From Methylohalomonas lacus (GTDB taxonomy: Bacteria; Pseudomonadota; Gammaproteobacteria; Methylohalomonadales; Methylohalomonadaceae): 64,000 nt of DNA. This document shows positions 2,091 to 64,000 of this stretch, one piece after another (the stretch's first letter is position 1; the number at the start of each line of letters is the position of its first letter). A program made the position numbers and the translations under genes. The stretch is from assembly GCF_024808875.1 (NCBI RefSeq), contig NZ_JANUCT010000006.1:1-64000 (forward strand), written 5' to 3'. The notes under the pieces were generated by a model that worked only from the letters and a program-made list of their open reading frames with translations, did not search any database and had not been told where the DNA came from.

Positions 2091-4679
2091 ATGGCCATGA
2101 GCACCACCGGCCAACACACCCCGTCGCACACCCCGGTCATGCAGCAGTACCTCGGTCTCAAGGCCGAGTATCCGGACAAGCTGCTGTTTTTCCACATGGG
2201 CGACTTCTACGAACTGTTCTACGACGACGCCCGCAAGGTCGCCCGTCTGCTGGACATCACCCTGACCCGCCGCGGCAGCTCGGCCGGCGAACCGATCCCG
2301 ATGGCCGGGGTGCCGATCCACGCCGTGGAAAGCTATCTCGCCCGCCTGGTACGGCAGGGCGAATCGGTCGTGATCTGCGACCAGATCGGCGACCCGGCGC
2401 AGGCCAAGGGACCGGTCGAGCGCCAGGTCACGCGCATCGTCACGCCCGGCACACTGACCGACGAGGCGCTGCTCGATGCGCGCAGCGACAACCTGCTGGT
2501 TGCCGTGCAGCCGCCGCGAAAGGACACGGAAACCTTCGGTCTGGCCACGCTGGAGCTGTCCAGCGGCCGTTTCATGCTGTCCGAGCCGGACAACGCGGCG
2601 ACGCTGCTGGCCGAACTCGAGCGCTTGCAGCCGGCCGAGCTGCTGTATCCGGACGCCGCCGGTGCAGCCGCCGGCGAGTTGCCCGTCGCCGCGAATGAAC
2701 GCCCCGGCTGGCAATTCGACAGCCAGCGCGCGCGGCCGCGACTGTGCCGGCAGTACGGTGTCGACAGCCTCGCCGGTTACGGCTGCGACGCGGCCAACCA
2801 GGCGCTGGCCGCCGCCGGCGCGTTGCTCCACTACCTGGAAGAAACCCAGCGCAGCGCCCTGCCGCACCTGTTGCCACCGCGGCTGGAACCGGCCAGCGAC
2901 AGCATCATGCTGGACGCCGCCTGCCGCCGGAACCTGGAAATCGAGCAGGATCTGTCGGGACGCCGTGACCACAGCCTGCTGCGGGTCATGGACACCACCG
3001 CCACGCCCATGGGCAGCCGCTGCCTGCGCCGCTGGCTGACACGGCCCCTGCGTGACCGGGATTGCCTGCGCGCGCGCTACCAAGCCGTTGCCCGCCTGCT
3101 CGACGACCGCCACTACCGGCCGCTGCGCGAAACCCTGGGCGACATCGGCGACGTCGAACGCATCCTGGCCCGCATCGCGCTCGCCAGCGCGCGGCCACGC
3201 GACCTGGTCCAACTGCGCCATGGTCTCGCCTGCCTGCCACCACTGCGCGCGGCGCTTGAGCCGCTGTACAGCCCGCTGCTGGACGAACTCGCCGATCAAC
3301 TGCAGGTCGATCCCGGCTGGCACGAGCTGCTGGTACGCGCCGTCGCCGACGAGCCCGCGGCTTTCGTGCGCGACGGCGGTGTCATTGCCGACGGCTACGA
3401 CAGCGAACTCGACGAACTGCGGCGCCTGAGCAGCGACGCCGGCGACTTCATTGCCCGGCTCGAGCAGGCCGAGCGCGAGGCTACCGGCATCGGCACGCTG
3501 AAGGTCGGCTTCAACCGCGTCCACGGCTATTACATCGAGGTCAGTCGCGCCCAGGCCGCGGCCGTGCCGGCGCACTACCAGCGCCGCCAGACCCTGAAGG
3601 CCGCCGAGCGTTACATCACGCCGGAACTCAAGGAACATGAAGACAAGGTCCTGAGCGCGCGCGAGCGCGCGCTGGCACGCGAGCGCGAACTCTACACCGG
3701 TCTGCTGGAACAGCTCGGCAGCGCGCTGACACCGCTACAGACCGCCGCCGCCGCGATCGCCGCGCTGGACGTGCTGGCGACGTTCGCCGAACGCGCCGAA
3801 AGCCTCAACCTGGCAGCGCCCGAACTCGGCGATGCGGCCGGCATCGATATTCGCGCCGGCCGCCACCTGGTGGTCGAACAACTGCAGTCGGAAGCGTTCG
3901 TGCCGAATGATCTCGTGATCAATGACGAGCGCCGCATGTTGATCATTACCGGACCGAACATGGGCGGAAAATCGACCTATATGCGGCAAACGGCGTTGAT
4001 CGTGCTGCTTGCGCACGCCGGCAGCTTCGTCCCCGCCGAGACCTGCCGCTGCGGCACCATCGACCGCATTTTCACCCGCATCGGTGCCAGTGACGACCTC
4101 GCCGGCGGCCGTTCCACCTTCATGGTGGAAATGACCGAAACGGCCACCATTCTCAACAACGCCACACCGCAAAGCCTGGTACTGCTCGACGAGATCGGCC
4201 GCGGCACGAGCACCTTCGACGGCCTGGCGCTGGCCTGGGCGGTGGCCGGCCGGCTGGCCGACGAAACCGGCGCACTGACACTGTTCGCCACGCATTACAT
4301 GGAGCTGACCACACTGCCGCAGGACCATGCCGGCGTCGACAACGTCCACCTGGACGCGGTCGAACACGGCGACCGCATCGTCTTCCTGCACAGTGTCGAA
4401 CCGGGGCCGGCGGATCGCAGCTACGGCCTGCAGGTCGCGCTGCTCGCGGGCGTACCGGCAGCGGTGGTCGACCGCGCCCGCGAACGCCTGCAACAGCTGG
4501 AATCGCAGGCGCTGCCCGATGAACGCGCCCAGCCCGACCTGTTTCAGCCGACCGCTGAACAGAATACGGCGGACAAAATCACCACGACACTGGCCGCCGT
4601 CGACCCGGATACAACCAGCCCGCGTGACGCCCTGCAGCTGCTTTACCAGCTGCGCCGCATGCTGGACGAAGAGCGCTGA
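2091..4679 (+). CDS. mutS: DNA mismatch repair ATPase MutS
   Basis: MutS recognises base mismatches and small loops and recruits MutL. The length, 862 aa, fits the family (E. coli 853). Mismatch-binding motif GDFYELF with Phe39-x-Glu41; core and clamp domains in the middle ([12 protein letters not shown]); Walker [10 protein letters not shown]; signature STFMVEM; Walker [17 protein letters not shown]; conserved [10 protein letters not shown]-terminal beta-clamp/tetramer region ends with [13 protein letters not shown]. The start ATG at 2091 is followed two codons later by another ATG, and either is possible. Followed by fdxA, the same neighbourhood as in pseudomonads. Confidence 0.97.
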
Positions 4680-51463: not shown

Positions 51464-52528
51464 TCAGCTGCGCTCGGCCAGCCAGTCACCCACCGCCGGC
51501 GGGATCATTTTCTGCGCCTTGCCGCTGACGTAGATACCGATATGGCCGCCGGGGAATTCCAGCTCGGAATAGTCGTCGGTACCGATGCAACCGCCCAGCG
51601 CCTTGGAAGAGTCCGGCGGCACCAGGTGGTCCGCGGCGGCATAAATATTCAGGATCGGCGTCTTGATATTCTGCAGGTCGACGGTCTTGTCACCAAGACG
51701 CACGGTAGCCTTGACCAGGCCGTTTTGCTGGTAGAACTGCTTGGTGAACTGACGGAAGGCTTCGCCGGCCTGATCCGGGCTGTCGAATATCCATTTCTCC
51801 ATGCGCATGAAGTTGCGCGCCTTGTCGGTATCATCGAGCAGGTTGACCAGATCAATATACTTTTGCCCCATCAGCTGGAACGGCTTCAGGCCGAGATAGG
51901 TCCAGTTGAGCAGTTCGCCGGGGATATTGCCAAGCGTATCGACCAGCTGGTCAACATCGATGTTGCGCACCAGGTTGCTGAGCAGATCGTTTTCCGTGTG
52001 AAAATCAACCGGCGTAACCGTAGTGATCAGGTTTTTCACCTTGTCCTGATGCAGGGCGGTATAACAGAGACTGAATGTGCCGCCCTGGCAAATGCCGAGC
52101 ATATTGATCTGCTTCTGGTTATGCTTCTTGCGGATGACATCGACACAACGGTCGATGTAACCATTGATATAATCATTCAGATCCAGGAAGCGGTCGGCAT
52201 CGTCCGGATAGCCCCAGTCAATCAGGTAGACATCCTGACCGGCATCGAGCAGCCCCTGTATCATCGAACGACCATCCTGAAGGTCGGCCATATAGGGCCG
52301 GTTAACCAGTGCATACACGATCAACAACGGCACCTTGTTGGGGTTTTCGACGCGTGGCTTGAAATGATAGAGCACCAGCTTGTCTTCGGTATAGACCGGT
52401 TCTTTTTCCGAGATACCAACTTCAATCTCACCCAGATCACTGAGGGTCTTGAACCCCTGCGCGAGCTTGGTATTGAATTCGTTGATCTCACGCGTAATCT
52501 CGTCAGGTCTCATCTGGAACGGAAACAC
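51464..52528 (-). CDS. phaC: Class III poly(3-hydroxyalkanoate) synthase subunit PhaC
   Basis: Catalytic subunit, 354 aa, close in layout to the Allochromatium enzyme. Nucleophile Cys147 in LGICQGGTFS, Asp300 in AAADHLVPPDSS and His329 in FPGGHIGIYVSG. It polymerises (R)-3-hydroxybutyryl-CoA and needs PhaE. The GTG at 52528 is preferred because AAGGAG is spaced eight bases upstream and the protein then begins VFPFQMRPDE, as in relatives; a GTG three codons earlier is too close to the ribosome site. Confidence 0.96.
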   Translation of the reverse strand: MFPFQMRPDEITREINEFNTKLAQGFKTLSDLGEIEVGISEKEPVYTEDKLVLYHFKPRVENPNKVPLLIVYALVNRPYMADLQDGRSMIQGLLDAGQDVYLIDWGYPDDADRFLDLNDYINGYIDRCVDVIRKKHNQKQINMLGICQGGTFSLCYTALHQDKVKNLITTVTPVDFHTENDLLSNLVRNIDVDQLVDTLGNIPGELLNWTYLGLKPFQLMGQKYIDLVNLLDDTDKARNFMRMEKWIFDSPDQAGEAFRQFTKQFYQQNGLVKATVRLGDKTVDLQNIKTPILNIYAAADHLVPPDSSKALGGCIGTDDYSELEFPGGHIGIYVSGKAQKMIPPAVGDWLAERS

Positions 52529-52567
52529 GTTATTCACTCCTTACGTTAGTAGCTGTCTGGCCGGTAT

Positions 52568-53725
52568 TCAGCCGGTTTTCTTGCTGGATGTCTTTTTCTT
52601 ACCGGTTTTCTTCTTGCCGGCTTTCTTCTTGCTGACCTTTTTCTTACTGGTCGCAGTCGCATTGCTACCGGCACTTGCCCGACCGCCTTTCAGTGACTGA
52701 ACCTCACGCTCAAGCGCATCAACCCTGTCGAGCTTGTCCTCAAGCTCCTCAATGCGATCCTTCGAGGCGATCAGATCGCGGCGCAGCTGCTGCTGGCGCT
52801 TCTGCATGGTCACAACGGATTTGCGCGTCGGCATGCCCATGGCGTTGGCAGTTTCATCGATGAAGCCCTGACCATGGTGCTTCAGTGCCATGAGATCGTT
52901 GGTCAGGCGACCGTAGAGTTCCGAATATTCATCCGTGAACACATATTCAGCGTAGGCTGCTTCATTACTGTCGACCCAGAGATCGTAGATTTCGCGCAGC
53001 GTGGTAATCTGCTCGTCGTTCTCGGCCATCTTGAGGATACGCTGTTTCATAATATCCAGCGCAGCCATCGATATCTTGTTCATCTCCAGCTGGTATTCCT
53101 GTGCGGTACGCTGGTAGCGCGCCCACAGCCGCAAACCTTCCTGAACCTGCTCTTGCGATTCGCGTGTATAGCCGACACCCGGAACGGACAGGAACTTGTC
53201 GGTGACCTCTCCCATGGCCTCGGGTTTCATGCCCTGCAGGAAATCGCCCGGAAATAGCGAGCCACTGGAAAAAGTCCGCTGCAGCGTATCCATGGGCAGC
53301 TGCCAGGCACCGAACATGCCATTCAGGACCTGACTGGCTTCGCTGTTCTGACGGCCCAGGTAATCCTTCATTTCCCGGAACTGTTGTTCGAGCTTCTCCT
53401 GCCAGTCCTCGGGACTCTGGCTGATCTCGGCGAGTCCCTGCATGAAGCGGCTTAACTGATCGGTGACGAAATAGAAAGCCTGCGTCTGGTCGATAATCTT
53501 GCTGTAAAAGTCCTGGGTTTCGCCGGGCGCGGTCTGCGCCATCGACTGCCACCAGAACTCCAGCGCCTTCTGCCAGGGATTGGCATCCTCGCCATTGCCG
53601 GTCGAGGTCGAACCGGACTTGCCACCGGCGTCGGCACCGCTCAGCGCCGACCAGGCTTCCATGTATTTGCGCTGGGCGTCGACCCAGTCGGTATTCCAGA
53701 AAGGAAACGGGTTCTTGTCACTCAT
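52568..53725 (-). CDS. phaE: Class III PHA synthase subunit PhaE with a lysine-rich tail
   Basis: 385 aa. Conserved PhaE region: WNTDWVDAQRKYMEAWSAL, PWQKALEFWWQSMAQTAPGE, AFGAWQLPMDTLQRTFSSGSL-like core, SNEAAYAEYVFTDEYSELYGRLTNDLMAL and a coiled coil (QKRQQQLRRDLIASKDRIEE). The last 25 or so residues are KKKVSKKKAGKKKTG-type, histone-like repeats, an addition that suggests nucleic-acid or nucleoid binding, as in PhaM. phaE precedes phaC in the transcript, separated by 39 bp. Confidence 0.94.
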   Translation of the reverse strand: MSDKNPFPFWNTDWVDAQRKYMEAWSALSGADAGGKSGSTSTGNGEDANPWQKALEFWWQSMAQTAPGETQDFYSKIIDQTQAFYFVTDQLSRFMQGLAEISQSPEDWQEKLEQQFREMKDYLGRQNSEASQVLNGMFGAWQLPMDTLQRTFSSGSLFPGDFLQGMKPEAMGEVTDKFLSVPGVGYTRESQEQVQEGLRLWARYQRTAQEYQLEMNKISMAALDIMKQRILKMAENDEQITTLREIYDLWVDSNEAAYAEYVFTDEYSELYGRLTNDLMALKHHGQGFIDETANAMGMPTRKSVVTMQKRQQQLRRDLIASKDRIEELEDKLDRVDALEREVQSLKGGRASAGSNATATSKKKVSKKKAGKKKTGKKKTSSKKTG

Positions 53726-53814
53726 TTTGCGTCTAAATCTCTTGGCTTGTTCGTTCGTTAATAATCATTAATCAGCAACATACCAGCATGCTGTCCCAAC
53801 CGCACGCCGGCCGG

Positions 53815-55437
53815 CTAACCATGGATTTCGGCCAGCTGCCGATACGCTTCCAAGGTCAGGAATTCCGGCAGTTCCTGCGCCGTGATCATGTGATCCAGCA
53901 ATTCCGCCGCCGCCTGGTAATGACGCCGGGCAAAAAACTGCTCGCCGTACACGATCCGGATCGACTCAATCTCGTGGGCAAGCACACGCCGGAACAGTTC
54001 CTCGTTGACCGCGCGGCTGTCTGCCAGCATGCCCTTCGGATACTGGATCCATTGCCAGACCTGGGCGCGCGCGATTTCGGCGGTCGCCGCATCCTCCATC
54101 AGATTATAGATGGGCACGGCGCCGAGACCACCGAGCCAGGCCTCAGTATAGCGCAACGCCGCGCTGACATTGCTCATCAGGCCGTGGATAGTGATCGAAC
54201 CCTCCGGCAGTCTGAGCAGATCGGCGGCGCTGACCTCAACATCATCGCGCTGCTTGCTGATCTGGTTGTCTTCCGGCATGTACTGGTTGAAGACGTCCTC
54301 GCAAATCGGCACCAGTGCCGGATGGCCCACCCAGGAGCCGTCGTGACCGTCGCGCGCCTCGCGCTCCTTGTCACGCCGCACCTTGAGCATCGCCATCTCG
54401 TTCAGGTCTGGGTCGTCGCGCACCGGCAGCTGTGCCGCCATGCCGCCCATGGCGTGCACGCCGCGCTTGTGACAGGTCTTGATCAGCAACTGCGAATAGG
54501 CGCGCATGAACGGCGTGGTCATGGTCACCTGACTGCGATCCGGCAGCACGACATTCGGGTGATTGCGGAAGCACTTGATGAAACTGAAGATGTAGTCCCA
54601 GCGGCCGCAGTTCAGGCCGGCCGAGTGCTCGCGCAGTTCGTACAGGATCTCGTCCATCTCGAAGGCGGCGAGCACGGTTTCGATCAGCACCGTGGCCTTG
54701 ATGGTGCCGCGCGGTATGGCGAGCGCATCCTGGGCATAATTGAAGACGTCGTTCCACAGCCGTGCTTCAAGGTGCGACTGCATCTTCGGCAGGTAGAAAT
54801 ACGGCCCGCTGCCGTGCTCCAGCAGCGCATGCGCGTTGTGATAGAGGTACAGACCGAAATCCCACAGACCGGCCGGCACCGGCCGGCCGTCGACGAGTAC
54901 ATGGCCTTCTTCCATGTGCCAGCCGCGCGGGCGTACCAGCAGCGTGGCCACCTGGTCGTTAAGCCTGTAGTCCTTGCCGTTGTCGGCGGTGAAGTCGATT
55001 TGACGCCGAATCGCGTCATAAAGATTGACCTGGCCATCGATCATGGCCTGCCAGGTCGGACTCGAGGCATCCTCGAAGTCGGCCATGAACAGACGCGCAC
55101 CGGAGTTCAGCGCGTTGACCACCATGCGGCGATCGACCGGGCCGGTGATCTCGACACGCCGGTCCTGCAGATCCGCAGGCAGCGGCGCGACCTGCCAGTC
55201 GGCGTTTCGAATGTCGGCCGTTGCATCGAGAAAGTCCGGCAGCTCACCGGCATCAAGCCGCGCCTGGCGCTCGTGGCGCGCCTCGAGCAACGCGTCTACG
55301 CGCGGCCGGAATTCACGCACCAGGCCTTCGACGAAGGCCAGCGCCTCCGGCGACAGAATACGCTCGTGTTCGGCGGCGGGTGCCGGTGTCAGAATTTCCA
55401 GCCCAGCCACCTTCTGCGCATGGGATGCATCATTCAT
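53815..55437 (-). CDS. aceB: Malate synthase A
   Basis: 540 aa. It condenses acetyl-CoA with glyoxylate. Conserved [58 protein letters not shown] and [10 protein letters not shown], and [17 protein letters not shown] precedes the ATG. Isocitrate lyase is not adjacent. Expression with phaEC and acs fits growth on acetate or turnover of PHB. Confidence 0.96.
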
Positions 55438-55523
55438 CGACGTTTCCTCGACAATCTAACGGTTTGTCCCGGCGCAATCCGGGATTACAAGTTGTATCTG
55501 CTGCAGTGAACCCCGCCACAGGT

Positions 55524-55557
55524 AAAAAAACCCGTACCCCTTGCGGGGAACGGGTTT
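55524..55557 (-). terminator. Intrinsic terminator after the second phasin
   Basis: Read on minus: AAACCCGTTCCCC (55557-55545), short loop, GGGGTACGGGTTT (55540-55528), then Ts to 55524. One central mismatch. It stands 35 bp after the phasin stop and also separates it from aceB. Confidence 0.9.
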
Positions 55558-55591
55558 CTTGACCGGGACACAAGGGCCAATGAAAGCTCGA

Positions 55592-55990
55592 TTAGGCAGC
55601 CTTCTTGGTGCTGCTGGTGGCCGTGGTCGTCGCCTTCTTGGCAGTCGACTTGGCGGTCTCACCAAAGCTTTCCGCGCTCTTTTCGAACCAGGCAGCGATT
55701 TCCTCGCCGGATTCGTTCAGCACTTCAGCGGTCTGCTTGCTGAGATCCATCATCTTGCTGCTATAGGTGTTAGCCAGCTCGGATTCGGCCGAGATCAGAT
55801 CCTTGTAATTGGTGGTGCTGGACAGCAGCTTGGCCTGCTCGACACCGCTTTCGATGCCCATCGTCGCCATCGAGAACTGCAGCTCGGTCAGTTTCTGCAC
55901 GGCCTTGGTGTTGATGGCACCCAGCTGCTGCAGGTTTTCGTAAGAGGCTTTGCCGGCGTTGACGAATTGTTCAAAGATATCGTTTTGCAT
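55592..55990 (-). CDS. Phasin family protein with Lys/Ala/Thr-rich tail (132 aa)
   Basis: Helical phasin domain: MQNDIFEQFVNAGKASYENLQQLGAINTKAVQKLTELQFSMATMGIESG, LISAESELANTYSSKMMDLSKQTAEVLNESGEEIAAWFEK. The last 18 residues (STAKKATTTATSSTKKAA) resemble the PAKKA-type tails of nucleoid-binding phasins such as PhaM. The start ATG at 55990 is chosen because GGAG is correctly spaced; a GTG at 55999 overlaps that ribosome site. Strong promoter and tandem dyads upstream. Confidence 0.9.
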   Translation of the reverse strand: MQNDIFEQFVNAGKASYENLQQLGAINTKAVQKLTELQFSMATMGIESGVEQAKLLSSTTNYKDLISAESELANTYSSKMMDLSKQTAEVLNESGEEIAAWFEKSAESFGETAKSTAKKATTTATSSTKKAA

Positions 55991-56040
55991 GTTACTCACT
56001 CCGTGGAATCATTCAGTTGTTCATTGCTCTACATCGAACA

Positions 56041-56096
56041 TTGTGCATTGCACAATTGCTGCATCGCACAATATAACAACCCCACCCCTCTGTCAA
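56041..56096 (-). promoter_or_regulatory. Promoter and tandem dyad operators of the second phasin
   Basis: On minus: TTGACA (56096-56091), 17-bp spacer, TATTGT (56073-56068). Overlapping and following are two dyads, TTGTGCGATGCAGCAA (56071-56056) and TTGTGCAATGCACAA (56055-56041). The second has the same TGCANTGCA core as the phaA and first phasin sites. Same promoter-operator geometry as at 39713-39768. Confidence 0.78.
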
Positions 56097-56140
56097 CAGG
56101 GTTTCGCGTAAATTATTCATGAGCGCGCCGAGCCTAAAAA

Positions 56141-56168
56141 AAACCCGTAACCGGCCGGTTACGGGTTT
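56141..56168 (-). terminator. Intrinsic terminator of ppa
   Basis: Perfect 14-bp inverted repeat AAACCCGTAACCGG/CCGGTTACGGGTTT with no loop spacer beyond the dyad centre, followed on the minus strand by eight T (56143-56136). It may also work weakly on the plus strand. Confidence 0.9.
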
Positions 56169-56198
56169 TATAAAATAACAATAAAAACAGATAGTTAA

Positions 56199-56747
56199 TC
56201 AGTAATGGGGCTTATCCGGCTCGTCCGAGTAGCGAGCCAGCGAGTCGGTGATTTCCTTGCGCGCGGCATCGATACCCTGCCAGCCCCGGATCTTGACCCA
56301 CTTGTTCGGCTCCAGGTCCTTGTAGTGCTCGAAGAAATGCGAGATCTGGTCCAGCAGCGCCGGCTGCAGGTCCTCGTGGGTATCGACGTTCTGGTGGAAC
56401 TTGGACACCTTGCTGATCGGTACGACCAGAACCTTGCTGTCGTCACCGGCCTCATCCTCCATCTCCAGCACGCCGATCGGCCGGCAGCGGATCACCGAGC
56501 CATGGATCAGCGGCATGGGCGTGGCGACGATGATGTCCACCGGGTCGCCGTCCAGCGACAGGGTCCGCGGGATATAGCCGTAGTTGCACGGATAGCGCAT
56601 GGACGTGTTGAGGAAGCGATCGACGAACATGGCGCCGGTGTCCTTGTCGAGTTCGTACTTGACCGGCTCGCTGTAGATCGGGATTTCCACAACCACGTTA
56701 ATTTCATCGGGCGGATTGTCGCCCGGTCCGACTCTGTCCAGATTCAT
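56199..56747 (-). CDS. ppa: Inorganic pyrophosphatase (family I)
   Basis: 182 aa. Hydrolyses pyrophosphate. Key motifs: NVVVEIPIYSEPVKYELDKDTGAMFVDRFL, YPCNYGYIPRTLSLDGDPVDIIV (with the catalytic Asp triad DGDPVD) and DEAGDDSKVLVVP. It lies 33 bp after acs on the same strand, so the pyrophosphate made by acetate activation would be removed by the product of the same transcript. Confidence 0.96.
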   Translation of the reverse strand: MNLDRVGPGDNPPDEINVVVEIPIYSEPVKYELDKDTGAMFVDRFLNTSMRYPCNYGYIPRTLSLDGDPVDIIVATPMPLIHGSVIRCRPIGVLEMEDEAGDDSKVLVVPISKVSKFHQNVDTHEDLQPALLDQISHFFEHYKDLEPNKWVKIRGWQGIDAARKEITDSLARYSDEPDKPHY

Positions 56748-56780
56748 AACGTATTCAGATTTCCTTGGTGTTGGGCTTGA

Positions 56781-58718
<1,938 letters not shown>

Positions 58719-58846
58719 AACGACCCTCCTCTTCTTCATCCAGGTCAGCTGCCGTCTTGATCATGACGAGACGGTCTATGGTATTTTTTATGTCTGGCTC
58801 CGAGACAGTCGGAGATTGACTCGAATCATATCGTAATACTGCGGTT

Positions 58847-58879
58847 AAAAAAAAAGCAGGCTGCATGCGGCAGCCTGCT
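58847..58879 (-). terminator. Strong intrinsic terminator upstream of acs
   Basis: On minus: AGCAGGCTGC (58879-58870), loop CGCAT, GCAGCCTGCT (58864-58855), then an uninterrupted run of nine T (58855-58847). It points toward acs and lies 128 bp before the acs start, so it would stop a transcript that begins further upstream unless it is read through. Confidence 0.93.
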
Positions 58880-58983
58880 ATATAGGATATGTCGCATTTG
58901 CCCGAACCATTTCCCGGTTTCCCGGAAAGGCGACATATAGCGTTGATGGCAATCAACTCGTAGTCGGTTACACACCTACGTAC
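58847..58983 (-). ncRNA. Candidate structured RNA: sigma-54-dependent sRNA or attenuated acs leader
   Basis: From the predicted start (58983) to the terminator end the minus strand is a chain of hairpins: CGTAG/CTACG (58980-58976 with 58963-58959), GTTGAT-TGCC-ATCAAC (58957-58942), a 9-bp stem ATATGTCGC/GCGACATAT (58938-58930 with 58895-58887) enclosing CCGG-GAAA-CCGG, a GNRA-type loop (58925-58914), and then the terminator. No open frame of note with a ribosome site. I do not recognise it as a known riboswitch or sRNA family. Confidence 0.55.
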
Positions 58984-58993
58984 CCGTGTCCCT

Positions 58994-59010
58994 AGCAGAT
59001 TCCGTACCAA
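58994..59010 (-). promoter_or_regulatory. Sigma-54 (-24/-12) promoter
   Basis: Minus strand TTGGTACGGAATCTGCT. Against the consensus TGGCACG-N4-TTGCW it matches at all but two positions and keeps the essential GG-N10-GC spacing. Predicted transcription start near 58983. The neighbouring gene encodes a sigma-54 activator with the GAFTGA loop. Confidence 0.75.
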
Positions 59011-59079
59011 TCACGCCGCAGCGGGCAGCAGAGTGTAAAGGCTTGTTTTTCATGTTCATGGACAACCTATTCATGAGCA

Positions 59080-59143
59080 GCTGTTGCATTAACTGTTGCC
59101 ATAAACTGTGGCGCCACAGTTCACTGCGGCATTATGCAACAGC
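59080..59143. promoter_or_regulatory. Nested dyads, candidate activator-binding (enhancer) site
   Basis: Inner perfect 18-bp palindrome AACTGTGGCGCCACAGTT (59104-59121); outer perfect arms GCTGTTGCAT (59080-59089) and ATGCAACAGC (59134-59143). The centre is about 129 bp upstream of the predicted sigma-54 start, a usual enhancer distance. No T-tract follows on either strand, which argues against its being only a terminator of the activator gene that ends at 59148. Confidence 0.65.
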
Positions 59144-59147
59144 CATG

Positions 59148-61151
59148 CTACAGCGGATCGTTCCAGCCACGGCGGCGGCGATAGATGGTACTGCGATCGA
59201 TGCCCAGTTTACGTGCCGCGGCGCTGACATTACCGCCGGTTTCCGCCAGCGTGCGGCGGATCAGATCATCCTCGACATGGCGCAGCTCTGCGGCGGGTTC
59301 GTCCCCGGCCAGGCGCGGCGCGGCGGCCTGCGGCACGTCGGCGTCGCTAATGCGGCCGTCACGGGCGGTCAGCAGCCAGCGAATGCACAGGTTGCGCAGT
59401 TCACGGATGTTGCCGGGCCAAGCATGGCGGCGCAGGTAGTCGCGCGCCGCCGGGCCCAGCTGCGGCGGCTGGCAGCCGGCGGCCAGGCTTTCCTTGGCAA
59501 GGAAGGATTCCGCCAGTGCAACGACGTCGTCGCCGCGTTCGCGTAGTGCCGGTACACGCACTTCCAGCACGCATAGACGGTGGTAGAGATCGAGCCGAAA
59601 ACGGCCGTTTTCCAGCGCCCGCGCCAGCTCCGGCGTCGCCGCAGCGATGATGCGTACGTCGACATGCAGCGGCTGGCTGCTGCCGAGCCGCGTGATCTCC
59701 TTGTTATCGAGCACGCGCAGGAACTTCGCCTGCAGCTCCGGATCCAGCGAGTCGATCTCGTCGAGAAACAGCGTGCCATTATGCGCCAACTCGAATTTGC
59801 CCGGCTGACCATCGCGGCGGGCGCCGGTGAACGCACCGCCGGTATAACCGAACAGCTCGCTTTCAATCAGGTCGCGCGGCAGTGCGCCGCAGTTGATAGC
59901 AATGAACGGTCCGTCGTTTCGCCCGCCCTCGGCGTGGATGGCATGCGCCAGCAGTTCCTTGCCGGTGCCGGTCTCGCCAACCAGCAGCACGCTGTTGTCG
60001 AGCGGATCGCGGGCAGCGGCGGTCGCCATCTGCAGCGCCTTGGCTATGGCCGGCGAATCGCCGAGGATGTTGTCGAAGCTGTAGCGCGACACCGCCGGCT
60101 GCGCCACGGCCGACTCACGCCGCCGGCCCGGCGCCGCGCCGATCACCAGCAGCGCGCCGAGGCAGTCATCGCCGATGGCGATCGGCTCGATCCGGCAGTG
60201 TAATGCCTGCAGGTCACCGCCCTGGCTGCGCGCGGTGACCTGCAGGTCACCGGCGCAGGCCTCGTTCAGGTGCTGCTCGATCGTCTGCCACACGCCCGGC
60301 AGGAAGCGGCTTACCGGCCGATTGAACAGCGCGATGTAGTCGCTGCCGAGGCAGCGACTGGCGCGGTTGTTGGTGTCGACGATGTCGCCGTTCATGTCGA
60401 CGACGATGACGCCATCGTCCGGCCAGCGGCTGCGCTTATCGCGGGCCAGGCCGCGCAGCAGCTCGCGCCGCTCATACAGGCGCACCGACAGCGCCGACTG
60501 CACGGTCTGGGCGATCGACACCGCCAGCACCATGGCTTCCTGCGAGATGTTCTGCACCGGCCCGGTAATGTCGACTGCGCCCAGCGGCTGGCGCCGGTTC
60601 AGCGGGTTGATGATCGGCGCGCCGTAACAGACCCAGGGCTGCCAGCCCTGACAATAATGCTCGACGCCGAGCACTACTTCCGGGCGCTGCAGCGCTAGCG
60701 GCGTGCCGATGCCATTGGGGCCGACGTCCGCTTCCAGCCAGCCGCCACCGGGGCGAAAGTTGATGCGTTCGAGGTGTTCCTGGATCTGGTCGTGACCAAC
60801 GGAATACAGGATCCGGCCCTGGTGGTCGGCCAGAACAATGACGTGGCGGGTGTCGCGCACGGTGTTCGCCAGCTCATCCAGTACCGGGCGACCGGCGCGG
60901 CCGAGGTCCTCGCGCACCAGCCAGGCCTCGATTTCCTCGTTGGAGAGGACCGTCGGCGCGCGCTCGGCGCGCGGGTTCAGGCCGATCTCGCGGCTGCGCT
61001 CCCAGCTGCGTGCGATGACGCTGCGCGGCGATTCGCCGGCAAAGCGGCCGCTGTCGACAAAGGTCTCCCAGGCGCGTGACAGCTGTTGCTGCGACACGCT
61101 CGGGATATGCGGCACACCCGGCGCCGACAGGTGGGTGTTCTGCTCGGTCAT
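59148..61151 (-). CDS. AcoR-like sigma-54-dependent Fis-family activator (667 aa)
   Basis: N-terminal GAF-type sensor (about 60-215), PAS-like region (about 235-330: VIVVDMNGDIVDTNNRASRCLG), AAA+ domain (about 355-590) with Walker A VGETGTGKELLAH, ELFGYTGGAFTGARRDG (sigma-54 contact loop) and Walker B GTLFLDEID, and a C-terminal Fis helix-turn-helix (RRTLAETGGNVSAAARKLGIDRSTIYRRR). No response-regulator receiver. The layout is that of AcoR-like activators of acetoin, alcohol or acetate metabolism. It lies next to the sigma-54 promoter and dyads above, so acs or the leader RNA is the likely target. Confidence 0.93.
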   Translation of the reverse strand: MTEQNTHLSAPGVPHIPSVSQQQLSRAWETFVDSGRFAGESPRSVIARSWERSREIGLNPRAERAPTVLSNEEIEAWLVREDLGRAGRPVLDELANTVRDTRHVIVLADHQGRILYSVGHDQIQEHLERINFRPGGGWLEADVGPNGIGTPLALQRPEVVLGVEHYCQGWQPWVCYGAPIINPLNRRQPLGAVDITGPVQNISQEAMVLAVSIAQTVQSALSVRLYERRELLRGLARDKRSRWPDDGVIVVDMNGDIVDTNNRASRCLGSDYIALFNRPVSRFLPGVWQTIEQHLNEACAGDLQVTARSQGGDLQALHCRIEPIAIGDDCLGALLVIGAAPGRRRESAVAQPAVSRYSFDNILGDSPAIAKALQMATAAARDPLDNSVLLVGETGTGKELLAHAIHAEGGRNDGPFIAINCGALPRDLIESELFGYTGGAFTGARRDGQPGKFELAHNGTLFLDEIDSLDPELQAKFLRVLDNKEITRLGSSQPLHVDVRIIAAATPELARALENGRFRLDLYHRLCVLEVRVPALRERGDDVVALAESFLAKESLAAGCQPPQLGPAARDYLRRHAWPGNIRELRNLCIRWLLTARDGRISDADVPQAAAPRLAGDEPAAELRHVEDDLIRRTLAETGGNVSAAARKLGIDRSTIYRRRRGWNDPL

Positions 61152-61269
61152 TCCGACTCTCCAGCTCGGCCCCGATGATCAACAATGTTCAATACGCCGT
61201 CTCCGACCCGTATAAACGGTTGGACCGGCTTTTCAGTCATTCATCTTAATACGAATCGTCCCGGCGATC

Positions 61270-62016
61270 CTAACCGGCGCGCAGACGCTGCTCGATCTCG
61301 ATCCAGAGACTGACGTAGGCCCGCGCCGCCTCGCTGGCAGCGGCATAGGCGCCCAGCGGCGCACGCCGCGTACCCATCTGCTCGACCACGCTGGCGTACG
61401 GAATGACGCTGGCTAACGCCGCCGGGTAGCTTTCCGGGAACTCGGCAATGATCTGCTGGTGCAGCTGGCGCCGCCGGTCGGCCATGGAAAAGAACGGCAG
61501 CAGCCGCAGATCGGCGTAGTTACGCTGGCAGAACGCCTCGACCTGCTCGTAGGCGCGCACCGAGAGCGGCGTCGGGATCACCGGGATCAGCAGGGCATCG
61601 GCGGCGCTGAACACGCTTTCCGATACTTGCGCGATGCTCGGCGCGCAGTCGATCAGAACGATATCGTAGTCCTCGGCCAGCGGTTTGATGATCTTCGCCA
61701 GCCGCTTGCCGGGCTTTTTCACTTCGGTCAGCAACACGTCCATTTCGCGGTTGGAGAAATCGGCCGGGATCACGTCCAGCGTCGGGTAATTGCTGGCCTT
61801 GATGAAGCGTTCCAGGTCTTCCTTGCGCCTGATGATCGTCTTGCTGCCACCGTCGAGTCCCGGCTCGATGCGATAGTAGTACGTCGCCGCCGCCTGCGGA
61901 TCGAGATCCCACAGCAGCACACGGCGGCCAGCCTGCGCCGCGCAGTAGGCGAGATTGACCGCGGCGGCGGTCTTGCCGACACCGCCCTTGAGGTTATACG
62001 TGGCGAGTATTTTCAT
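61270..62016 (-). CDS. ParA/MinD-family ATPase, orphan (248 aa)
   Basis: Deviant Walker A KGGVGKTAAAVN (Lys10, Lys15), DLDPQAAATYYY, IVLIDCAPSIAQVSESVFSAADALLIPVIPTPLSVRA, and a long C-terminal helix. No parB or partition site beside it, so not a typical chromosome-partition pair. Start at 62016, overlapping the 3' end of the CHAD gene by 23 bp, which implies co-translation. Such orphan ParAs often position cellular bodies. Confidence 0.88.
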   Translation of the reverse strand: MKILATYNLKGGVGKTAAAVNLAYCAAQAGRRVLLWDLDPQAAATYYYRIEPGLDGGSKTIIRRKEDLERFIKASNYPTLDVIPADFSNREMDVLLTEVKKPGKRLAKIIKPLAEDYDIVLIDCAPSIAQVSESVFSAADALLIPVIPTPLSVRAYEQVEAFCQRNYADLRLLPFFSMADRRRQLHQQIIAEFPESYPAALASVIPYASVVEQMGTRRAPLGAYAAASEAARAYVSLWIEIEQRLRAG

Positions 62017-63562
62017 CGGCGTGCTCGATCCGGTTGGGTTTGAACAGGCGCTTGACCGCCGCGTGATCCTGCTTGCGGCTGAAGCGGTCGAACGCGGCAC
62101 GGAAATCCTGCAGGCAGCGAGCATGGCGCGCGTCGCAGTCAGCGATCAGCTGCTGTACGCGCCCGGCTGCTGCCGCACTCAGGCTGTGACGCTCGTGGAG
62201 TTGCAGCAGCAGGTCGCCCTGTGTGCTGGCGTCGACGATCGCGCCCATGGTGTTCTGCAGTTTCTTCAACCGCTTGATCAGGTGATCGATCGCTGCCGCC
62301 GGGTACAGCGAGCGAAACGCCTCGATGCCATAGCGCAGTTTCTTGCAGCGCTTGCGTAACTCGTGCAGGCCTTCAATATCGGTTTCCGGCTTCAGCTTGC
62401 GGCCGCGTTTGCGAATGCCGCGATAACTGCGCCAGATGACACGATCGGCCGTGGCCTTGATCGGCATGGCCGCCGCCTCGCCGGCATAGCCGCCGGCGGC
62501 GGCACGTTCCAGCCAGCTGCGCCAGTCACGCATGTCGCGCGCGTAACGCGCGCTGTCCAGGTAGCGCAACAGCCGCGCCCGGGCGCGTTCGCGCTCGTCC
62601 CGGCAGATCGCACGCAGCTCATCGTGCACCCCGGCCGGCGCGTCGCCAGGCAAATGATCGAATTCGAGCAGAAAGACATCCCAGTCACGGCAATCGCCGG
62701 TAACGCGACTGAGTTCAGCGAACAGGGTCTTGAAGCGCGCGCGTGCTTCCTCATCCGGCAGCGGCATGGCCTGCTGTAGCAGGGTACGACTGCGGCGGCA
62801 GGCGACGCGGTAATCATGCAGGAACTCCGTGTCGATGTCATCGCGTATGCCGGCCTCGTTCAGCTCCATGACGCCGAGCAGGAACAGCTGCAGGCGGCCG
62901 AGTGACGCATCGGTGCGTTCGTCCGGTTCGAGTGCCAAAATCAGCCGGGCGTCGTAACCGCCCGGCACGATATCGCGTTCGCGGCACAGCTGCTCGAACG
63001 GATCGGCCTGTTGCGCAGCCAGCGTCAGCTGCGGTTCCAGCTGCCGGCGCAGGGCATCGCCCTGATCGACATAACCGCGCAATGGCGCGATCGACAGCTG
63101 CACGTACAGCACCTCGGCATCGCGGCGATCATGAAAGGTCGACACGTCAATGTACGCAACAGTCTTGCCGTTGACGTCGCGAAAGTCATGACGCTGCAGG
63201 CGGTGAAACCAGTTCGCCACCGGCAGTAGCGCGCGTACGTCACAAATCTTCTCCAGCTGACGCCGCAGCCGGGACGCCGTCAGTTCCGCGGGAAAAGCCG
63301 GCATGCGCTCAACCGGCAGCAGATGCTGCGCCTGTTCGCGCTCGAAACCATGCAATCGCAGCTGGCCACGACCCGCGGCCCAGTCCAGTTCCAGTACCCG
63401 GTGCTTTCGGTAAAGCCGCCAATCAAAAGTATCGAAATAGCTGCGCCGATACACACGCCCGGCCTGTGGCACGAGACTGCCCGCCTGCGGCGCGAGCCAG
63501 CGCCGCAAACACTCCACCGTCGGCGCCTCGGGCAAGATGTACCGGTAAACTGTGTCCTGCAT
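61994..63562 (-). CDS. CYTH-like/CHAD-domain protein (522 aa)
   Basis: The N-terminal 200 or so residues have the size and hallmarks of a CYTH/triphosphate tunnel domain (RSYFDTFDWRLYRKHRVLELDWAAGRGQLRLHGFE) but the usual ExExK motif is not seen near the start (VYRYILPE instead). The C-terminal CHAD domain (about 220-500) has the conserved His/Arg pattern FLHDYRVACRRSRTLLQQ, WDVFLLEFDHL and LHELRKRCKKLRYGIEAF. CHAD proteins bind polyphosphate and can sit on polyphosphate granules. Coupled to the ParA gene. Confidence 0.85.
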   Translation of the reverse strand: MQDTVYRYILPEAPTVECLRRWLAPQAGSLVPQAGRVYRRSYFDTFDWRLYRKHRVLELDWAAGRGQLRLHGFEREQAQHLLPVERMPAFPAELTASRLRRQLEKICDVRALLPVANWFHRLQRHDFRDVNGKTVAYIDVSTFHDRRDAEVLYVQLSIAPLRGYVDQGDALRRQLEPQLTLAAQQADPFEQLCRERDIVPGGYDARLILALEPDERTDASLGRLQLFLLGVMELNEAGIRDDIDTEFLHDYRVACRRSRTLLQQAMPLPDEEARARFKTLFAELSRVTGDCRDWDVFLLEFDHLPGDAPAGVHDELRAICRDERERARARLLRYLDSARYARDMRDWRSWLERAAAGGYAGEAAAMPIKATADRVIWRSYRGIRKRGRKLKPETDIEGLHELRKRCKKLRYGIEAFRSLYPAAAIDHLIKRLKKLQNTMGAIVDASTQGDLLLQLHERHSLSAAAAGRVQQLIADCDARHARCLQDFRAAFDRFSRKQDHAAVKRLFKPNRIEHADENTRHV

Positions 63563-63723
63563 GCCTTTCTCTTTGTTAAAAAGAATAAATATTCAGCACA
63601 TGCTTTAACTATTAATCCTGCACAATAATTATTGCAGTTCTACTGATTCTTGCCCCTGAAGTACAATCGATCTATGTCATTCGATCATTTTCTTGATCAT
63701 TGCAGGTGCCCGGAATGCGGCAT

Positions 63724-64000
63724 TCAAGTTGATTGATACAAACCATTACACTCGCGCCAACCAGCCATGAGCGGGAAGTAGAGCCCGAGCTTTACAGGCC
63801 GCTGATCCAGCGCGTACATGAACTCGGCATAACGTTCGAGCTGCGGCTGGTAACGCTCCCGTTCCTGGTCGAGGAACGCTTCCGGACTGCCGCCGGTGTG
63901 ACTGCCGGTCTTGTAGTCGATGATCCAGCGCATACCGTCTTTATCAACAAACGTGCGATCGATAACAACGCTTTCCAGGCGGCCATTGTTGAAACGCGTG
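63724..64000 (-). CDS. RecB-like nuclease domain at the C-terminus of a UvrD/AddA-type helicase (partial)
   Basis: The frame runs in from beyond the right edge and ends at 63724. The visible 91 codons carry GRLESVVIDRTFVDKDGMRWIIDYKTGSHTGG, the PD-(D/E)xK nuclease core, then QPQLERYAEFMYALDQRPVKLGLYFP, as at the ends of ATP-dependent exonuclease subunits. The helicase part is outside. Between it and the CHAD gene (63563-63723) there is only an A+T-rich spacer. Confidence 0.82.
   Translation of the reverse strand, partial: TRFNNGRLESVVIDRTFVDKDGMRWIIDYKTGSHTGGSPEAFLDQERERYQPQLERYAEFMYALDQRPVKLGLYFPLMAGWRECNGLYQST

Follow-up and report, generated by a model that had tools for sequence, protein, structure and literature searches.

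A probable sigma-54 control unit and a candidate new small RNA at the acs locus of Methylohalomonas lacus

GlmY/GlmZ, under GlrR, and Qrr, under LuxO, are small RNAs whose synthesis depends on sigma-54. CrcZ and CrcY are likewise described as sigma-54-dependent small RNAs, with CrcZ being involved in carbon control (PMC6292655). Among regulators of alcohol metabolism, BmoR is a sigma-54 activator of alcohol use which lies adjacent to its target (PMC8899819), and in R. solanacearum, where the AcoR-type regulator Rsc3129 is found with ExaC, growth on ethanol requires rpoN1 (PMC4676750). For gammaproteobacterial acs, in turn, a known activator is CrbR, which works at an RpoD promoter (PMC5715377), and control of the gene in these bacteria is so far known mainly through CrbS/R acting at sigma-70 promoters. 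A literature search which took in little of the subscription journals returned nothing on acs being controlled through sigma-54, nor on the combination of elements described below. Older work deals with an acetoin-linked acetyl-CoA synthetase in Alcaligenes eutrophus.

Organization of the locus and its activator

On the minus strand of the window (the whole 64-kb stretch of Methylohalomonas lacus DNA that was analyzed), an activator gene is followed by a repeat block, a sigma-54 site, a structured RNA with its terminator, acs, ppa, and a phasin gene (Table 1). The layout recurs in the ethanol- and acetate-use gene clusters of distant relatives, so that this is probably a genuine control unit at acs, and one that may include a new small RNA. 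The locus as a whole is best explained, with a probability of roughly 0.7 on the sequence comparisons presented here, as a sigma-54-dependent unit belonging to an alcohol/acetate (C2) utilization regulon. Translation of acs is assigned to the ATG at 58718, which is preceded by the ribosome site GAGGAGG; the identity of ppa is presumed from the first-pass annotation and the look of its sequence. Upstream of the phasin gene, tandem TTGTGCATTGCACAA/TTGCTGCATCGCACAA repeats (56038-56085) are present, which we take to resemble PhaR-type operator repeats.

Table 1. Positions of the features of the acs locus within the window
Feature	Position	Strand	Basis or remark
bEBP activator gene, AcoR/DhaR-like, 667 aa	59148..61151	-	Domain search; GAFTGA
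Repeat block, 64 bp	59080..59143	.	Outer arms, half-site GGCAACA, inner palindrome
Main candidate upstream activator site (UAS), TGTTGCATAATGCCGCA	59125..59141	-	2 mismatches vs TGTTGCA-N3-TGCAACA
Predicted sigma-54 promoter, TTGGTACGGAATCTGCT, -24/-12	58994..59010	-	Predicted start 58983; same class of site in five further loci
Structured RNA, ~137 nt	58847..58983	-	Fold z -4.3
RNA core stem, AUAUGUCGC/GCGACAUAU, with UUCGGGCA in loop	about 58938-58887	-	Homologous RNA L147:5770-5684
Intrinsic terminator, 10-bp stem + U8	58855..58879	-	Stem pairing probability 0.98
acs, acetate-CoA ligase	56781..58718	-	TIGR02188, E 0
ppa, inorganic pyrophosphatase	56199..56747	-	33 bp behind acs; acs-ppa order also in G404
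Phasin gene	55592..55999	-	TIGR01841; next in order in G404 too

The first-pass annotation had placed a GAF/PAS sigma-54 activator carrying GAFTGA beside a nested dyad, an assignment which the domain search bears out: the product harbors a GAF domain, a weak PAS domain, a sigma-54 interaction domain (E 1.5e-61), and a Fis-type helix-turn-helix (HTH), with GAFTGA at residue 439. Its AAA+ domain, with GAFTGA and the Walker A sequence GETGTGKE, and its Fis HTH are the features of a bacterial enhancer-binding protein (bEBP). PrpR, PrdR, and DhaR, its top-scoring NCBIfam models, each stay under the respective cut-off (288 bits against 551 in the case of the DhaR equivalog), and the protein is, therefore, regarded as an uncharacterized member of the AcoR/DhaR kind rather than filed as DhaR. 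Its orthologs are 45 to 54% identical, several of them having acs or a gene for a PQQ alcohol dehydrogenase as a neighbor, and rpoN is present in the Methylohalomonas lacus genome. Among 80 loci with other AcoR-type regulators, a genuine acs neighbor was observed only in L004.

Promoter, upstream activator site, and conservation of their geometry

The putative promoter TTGGTACGGAATCTGCT displays the GG-N10-GC spacing previously noted at 58994-59010, with boxes resembling YTGGCAY-N5-TTGCW. The pattern YTGGYA-N6-YTGCW, which stays inside the published sigma-54 consensus, has a frequency of 0.0009 (one strand) in shuffled intergenic regions and only three matches on both strands of the 64 kb, figures to be read with the pattern being slightly tuned to the data, since it admits the variants observed. 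The form TTGGYACG-N4-YTGCW has one match with zero mismatches in the 64 kb, where approximately 0.7 would be expected with up to one mismatch. Pattern search by itself is only suggestive of a sigma-54 site, the comparison across loci being stronger; the earlier observation of the site holds. Application of the -12 rule predicts transcription to start at 58983, the very position anticipated earlier, and a sigma-70 promoter scan of 57500-60500 found no site.

Because the comparison set included a single genome of this order, the comparison loci are those of activator relatives from other orders. In six of six loci with a target gene behind the activator gene (the window, G404, G408, G390, G197, and G301), a UAS resembling TGTTGCA-N3-TGCAACA (zero to three mismatches, TGT-N11-ACA type) is accompanied, 110 to 161 bp beyond it, by a promoter of the form YTGGYA-N6-CTGCW, so that the position of the site is conserved (TTGGTACGGAATCTGCT in the window, TTGGCATGCGTTCTGCA in G404, TTGGTATACCTCCTGCA in G408, TTGGTACAGTTTCTGCT in G390, CTGGCATAGTCTCTGCT in G197, and CTGGCACAGTCTCTGCA in G301). 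Sites of the type TGT-N10-12-ACA are known for many such activators (PMC6615313). The target is a PQQ-dependent alcohol dehydrogenase (TIGR03075) in G404 and G408 and a quinoprotein-relay hydrolase-like gene in G390, while acs stands directly behind the sigma-54 promoter in G197 and G301, where the leaders measure 94 and 82 nt. For the latter two relatives, the predicted sites support control of acs itself by sigma-54. The earlier claim that a transcript starting near 58983 is controlled by sigma-54 and the adjoining activator is well supported by the geometry of the five further loci, as well as by an additional promoter of this class in G404. Behind the activator of G392, neither a UAS nor a sigma-54 promoter was seen. 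The G119 activator gene is followed by a perfect UAS and, directly thereafter, by an rRNA operon (L084, 3450-4712), with no promoter match; any former target there is gone or moved.

The repeat block had been described as an enhancer-like nested dyad, a description which survives in part. The two 10-bp outer arms (GCTGTTGCAT/ATGCAACAGC) match perfectly, and the 18-bp inner palindrome (AACTGTGGCGCCACAGTT, 59104-59121) is likewise perfect; the inner palindrome was, however, rejected as the activator site, as it is not conserved in relatives and, with five perfect 18-bp palindromes in the 64-kb window, is unremarkable alone. The conserved enhancer element is, by comparison, predicted to be the outer arm (59125-59141), because relatives carry a TGTTGCA-N3-TGCAACA-like site behind the activator gene. 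The candidate UAS, TGTTGCATAATGCCGCA, takes in most of the outer left arm, and the right outer arm, together with GGCAACA 12 bp before it, resembles further half-sites. In L084, L085, and L103, the activator gene is followed by an exact TGTTGCA-N3-TGCAACA; such exact forms were present in 7 of 369 genomes of the class, compared to 2 for a reversed control pattern; among the seven, the site is directly behind the activator gene in G197, G301, and G119, and ahead of acs in G234. A single weak IHF-like site (AAACAAGCCTTTA, one mismatch) is located between the UAS and the promoter of the window.

The Methylohalomonas lacus genome contains eight UAS-like sites of the quality of the two-mismatch site of the window. 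The loci of the best UAS-like sites elsewhere in the genome (L088-L102) lacked a UAS and sigma-54 site at a fitting distance, with the possible exception of L096/L097, where a UAS with three mismatches is found 65 bp from a sigma-54-like match. The genome also harbors three PQQ-dehydrogenase-like genes outside the locus, and the analyzed flanks of these contained no UAS and sigma-54 pair. The predicted regulon in this genome may therefore comprise this locus alone.

The locus of G404, a genome of another order, brings all of these elements together. Its 5' part comprises the activator gene, the UAS, the sigma-54 promoter, the PQQ alcohol dehydrogenase gene, and a cytochrome c gene; its middle part encodes a solute-binding-type protein, a SoxYZ-like carrier, and a hydrolase (TIGR04558), followed by a second UAS-like site with the second sigma-54 promoter; and its 3' part harbors an RNA homologous to that of the window, followed by DUF4197, acs, ppa, and a phasin gene (named by its likeness to that of the window). 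Given that the order of activator, RNA, acs, ppa, and phasin is common to both, the window would best be read as a contracted form of an alcohol/acetate-oxidation locus such as that of G404, where the direction of change, i.e., loss in the window as opposed to gain in G404, is inferred.

The structured RNA and its relatives

The G404 RNA (L147:5770-5684) has a fold z of -7.1. Both RNAs start behind a sigma-54 site and share a stem of 9 bp (AUAUGYCGC/GCGRCAUAU) in which one pair differs by a compensatory U-A/C-G exchange. They also have in common UCGGGC in the 3' part of the loop, a spacer, and the terminator; the RNA of the window has an extra 5' region of approximately 35 nt and a longer loop. 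The terminator arms of the two have changed together at seven pairs, yet terminators always pair, and it is therefore only the first stem and the loop which argue for homology. Upon shuffling of the part of the G404 RNA ahead of its terminator, the real alignment score was reached in 1 of 3,000 cases. A covariance model, R1, was built from the two RNAs with 13 nt of the window loop left out, and its hits on the window and G404 are thus by construction. Searches with blastn and R1 across 369 genomes of the class, a sample to which G404 does not belong, retrieved only the window, which is why the G404 copy came via synteny; a search of 30 acs loci of family f120 yielded only the G404 copy. The RNA is thereby known from two genomes. 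No Rfam family matched at its gathering threshold in 52000-64000, and the RNA was consequently not assigned to a known family, with suhB (16.3 against 41 bits) giving the best sub-threshold score and sR2 likewise staying below threshold.

Two further candidates were set aside. In L103 (15.9 bits, E 0.2), the match to the RNA consists of the terminator only. The long leader of G390 (L113; L149, between the sigma-54 site at 4447 and the hydrolase gene) contains a GUCGCA...UGCGAC hairpin with U8, which is perhaps a diverged copy of the window RNA; with no R1 match there, it was not counted as a homolog.

With a sigma-54 promoter and an intrinsic terminator of its own, the RNA has the structural attributes of a small RNA. 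The window RNA has two nearly equal folds, in just one of which the UCGGGC loop is accessible, and the seed complement TGCCCGA occurs at 17 places in the window, including the antisense of the RNA itself, among which no clear target was evident. It is a tentative and, on balance, somewhat unlikely proposition that the RNA represents a new family of sigma-54-dependent small RNAs, driven by an ethanol/acetate-use activator and coupling C2 entry (alcohol dehydrogenase, acs, and ppa) to storage-polymer genes by base pairing of the UCGGGC loop. If true, it would be a carbon-control RNA which is CrcZ-like in logic and of separate origin.

Routes of expression of acs-ppa and alternative explanations

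In the model that we propose, the AcoR-family activator would bind the TGTTGCA-type sites behind its own gene and, once bound, would loop to the RNA polymerase-sigma-54 complex at 58994-59010; the transcript would start near 58983, as suggested by the conservation of the site and of its geometry. Its first product would be the conserved structured RNA, mostly ending at the predicted terminator (58879-58855) and likely functioning as a small RNA, presumably by way of its conserved UCGGGC loop. The acs-ppa genes would be supplied either by polymerases which read through or by a separate downstream promoter, and the locus would represent the contracted version of an ethanol-oxidation cluster in which, as in G404, a PQQ alcohol dehydrogenase and accessory genes stand together with the activator, the RNA, acs, ppa, and phasin. 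We have a slight preference for the terminated small RNA being the main product, with acs being reached by partial read-through, which fits the RNA as small RNA and as leader alike; a stand-alone sigma-54-dependent small RNA is at least as likely as read-through into acs.

One alternative is that the acs-ppa mRNA has the RNA as a conditional leader, be it an attenuator or a riboswitch, into which sigma-54 would fire and in which a signal would decide between termination and continuation into acs. This is a credible possibility, albeit one to which we assign less than an even chance. A terminator stands between the promoter and the acs operon in both the window and G404, the RNAs of both are structured beyond chance (z of -4.3 and -7.1), and the window leader has no sigma-70 match. 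In G301, a strong 12-pair terminator (L103, 1320-1348, minus strand) is found between the sigma-54 promoter and acs, and because it lies only approximately 20 nt before the ATG, there is little room for an extra acs promoter. Against this, the terminator stems pair with a probability of 0.98 to 1.0 in the full leaders to acs, with no competing structure and no mutually exclusive antiterminator, and the first-pass proposal that acs and ppa come under sigma-54 control by read-through consequently gained no support from the window leader, whose stem is paired at 0.98. Moreover, the G404 terminator is followed by approximately 200 nt and DUF4197 rather than acs, G197, a congener of G301, has just a weak hairpin between promoter and acs, and no Rfam riboswitch was matched. 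Control of termination by a protein or by the ribosome may still be compatible with these data.

Alternatively, the sigma-54 unit may yield the small RNA only, acs-ppa being transcribed from a promoter of their own between 58846 and 58740, a scenario which merits serious consideration while falling short of being probable. It would account for the strength of the terminator and for the 128 nt which separate it from acs and in which a TATGAT-like -10 sequence is found, and the promoter region of acs in family f120 is sigma-70-like and includes an operator-like repeat. Conversely, no site passed the sigma-70 scan of 57500-60500, and acs is located directly behind the sigma-54 promoter in G197 and G301.

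That the repeat block serves a different, acetate-responsive regulator, the sigma-54 match being due to chance, is very unlikely. Its basis is family f120, in which TGTTGCA-N3-TGCAACA (with at most two mismatches) lies 170 to 207 bp before the start of approximately 10 acs genes (L115, L119, L120, L122-L124, L129, L132, and L139), several copies standing ahead of a conserved GGTATATNATG element; a sigma-54 site was lacking there, and in most cases no activator was detected. Because of this, the motif may, as a sequence-based reading, be used by another regulator as well. However, in each of the six loci the activator gene is followed by UAS and sigma-54 promoter together, and the motif of the known acs regulator, CrbR, is different, being TACTACCATCGTCGAAT-like (PMC5715377). 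In G333 (L108, around 1380 and 1501), two TGTTGCA-type palindromes occupy one promoter region ahead of an unidentified gene, possibly reflecting another regulator which shares the motif.

Finally, the notion that the hairpin at 58879-58855, the first terminator behind the activator gene, simply ends the activator mRNA and that the RNA is functionless has little to commend it, as the hairpin is downstream of a conserved sigma-54 promoter and G404 retains both the stem and UCGGGC at a place remote from the activator gene.

The proposed sigma-54 control unit ties an alcohol-type sigma-54 activator to a conserved uncharacterized RNA, acetate activation, and PHA-associated genes. It defines a directly testable set of binding motif and promoters, and it would add a candidate carbon-control RNA outside the CrcZ, Qrr, and Glm systems. 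The activator resembles AcoR, DhaR, and BmoR, the activators of acetoin, glycerol, and alcohol catabolism, in its GAF-type input, AAA+ domain with GAFTGA, and Fis HTH, in the location of its gene next to the target, in an inverted-repeat UAS which precedes a -24/-12 promoter at a long distance, and, among its relatives, in its alcohol-oxidation targets. It differs from them in that the target in the window is the RNA together with acs-ppa and in that it scores below every NCBIfam equivalog cut-off, including that of DhaR. As in CbrB-CrcZ/CrcY, LuxO-Qrr, and GlrR-GlmY/GlmZ, an activator and sigma-54 would act at a short, terminated, structured RNA, as judged here from sequence; unlike CrcZ/CrcY, Qrr, and GlmY/GlmZ, the window RNA has no Rfam match and adjoins both acs and its own activator gene. 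With CrbS/CrbR, the locus would share the transcriptional activation of acs for acetate use, as proposed here, whereas CrbR is a LuxR-family regulator acting through the ACTU motif at an RpoD promoter, and the present unit would employ sigma-54, a bEBP, and a different motif.
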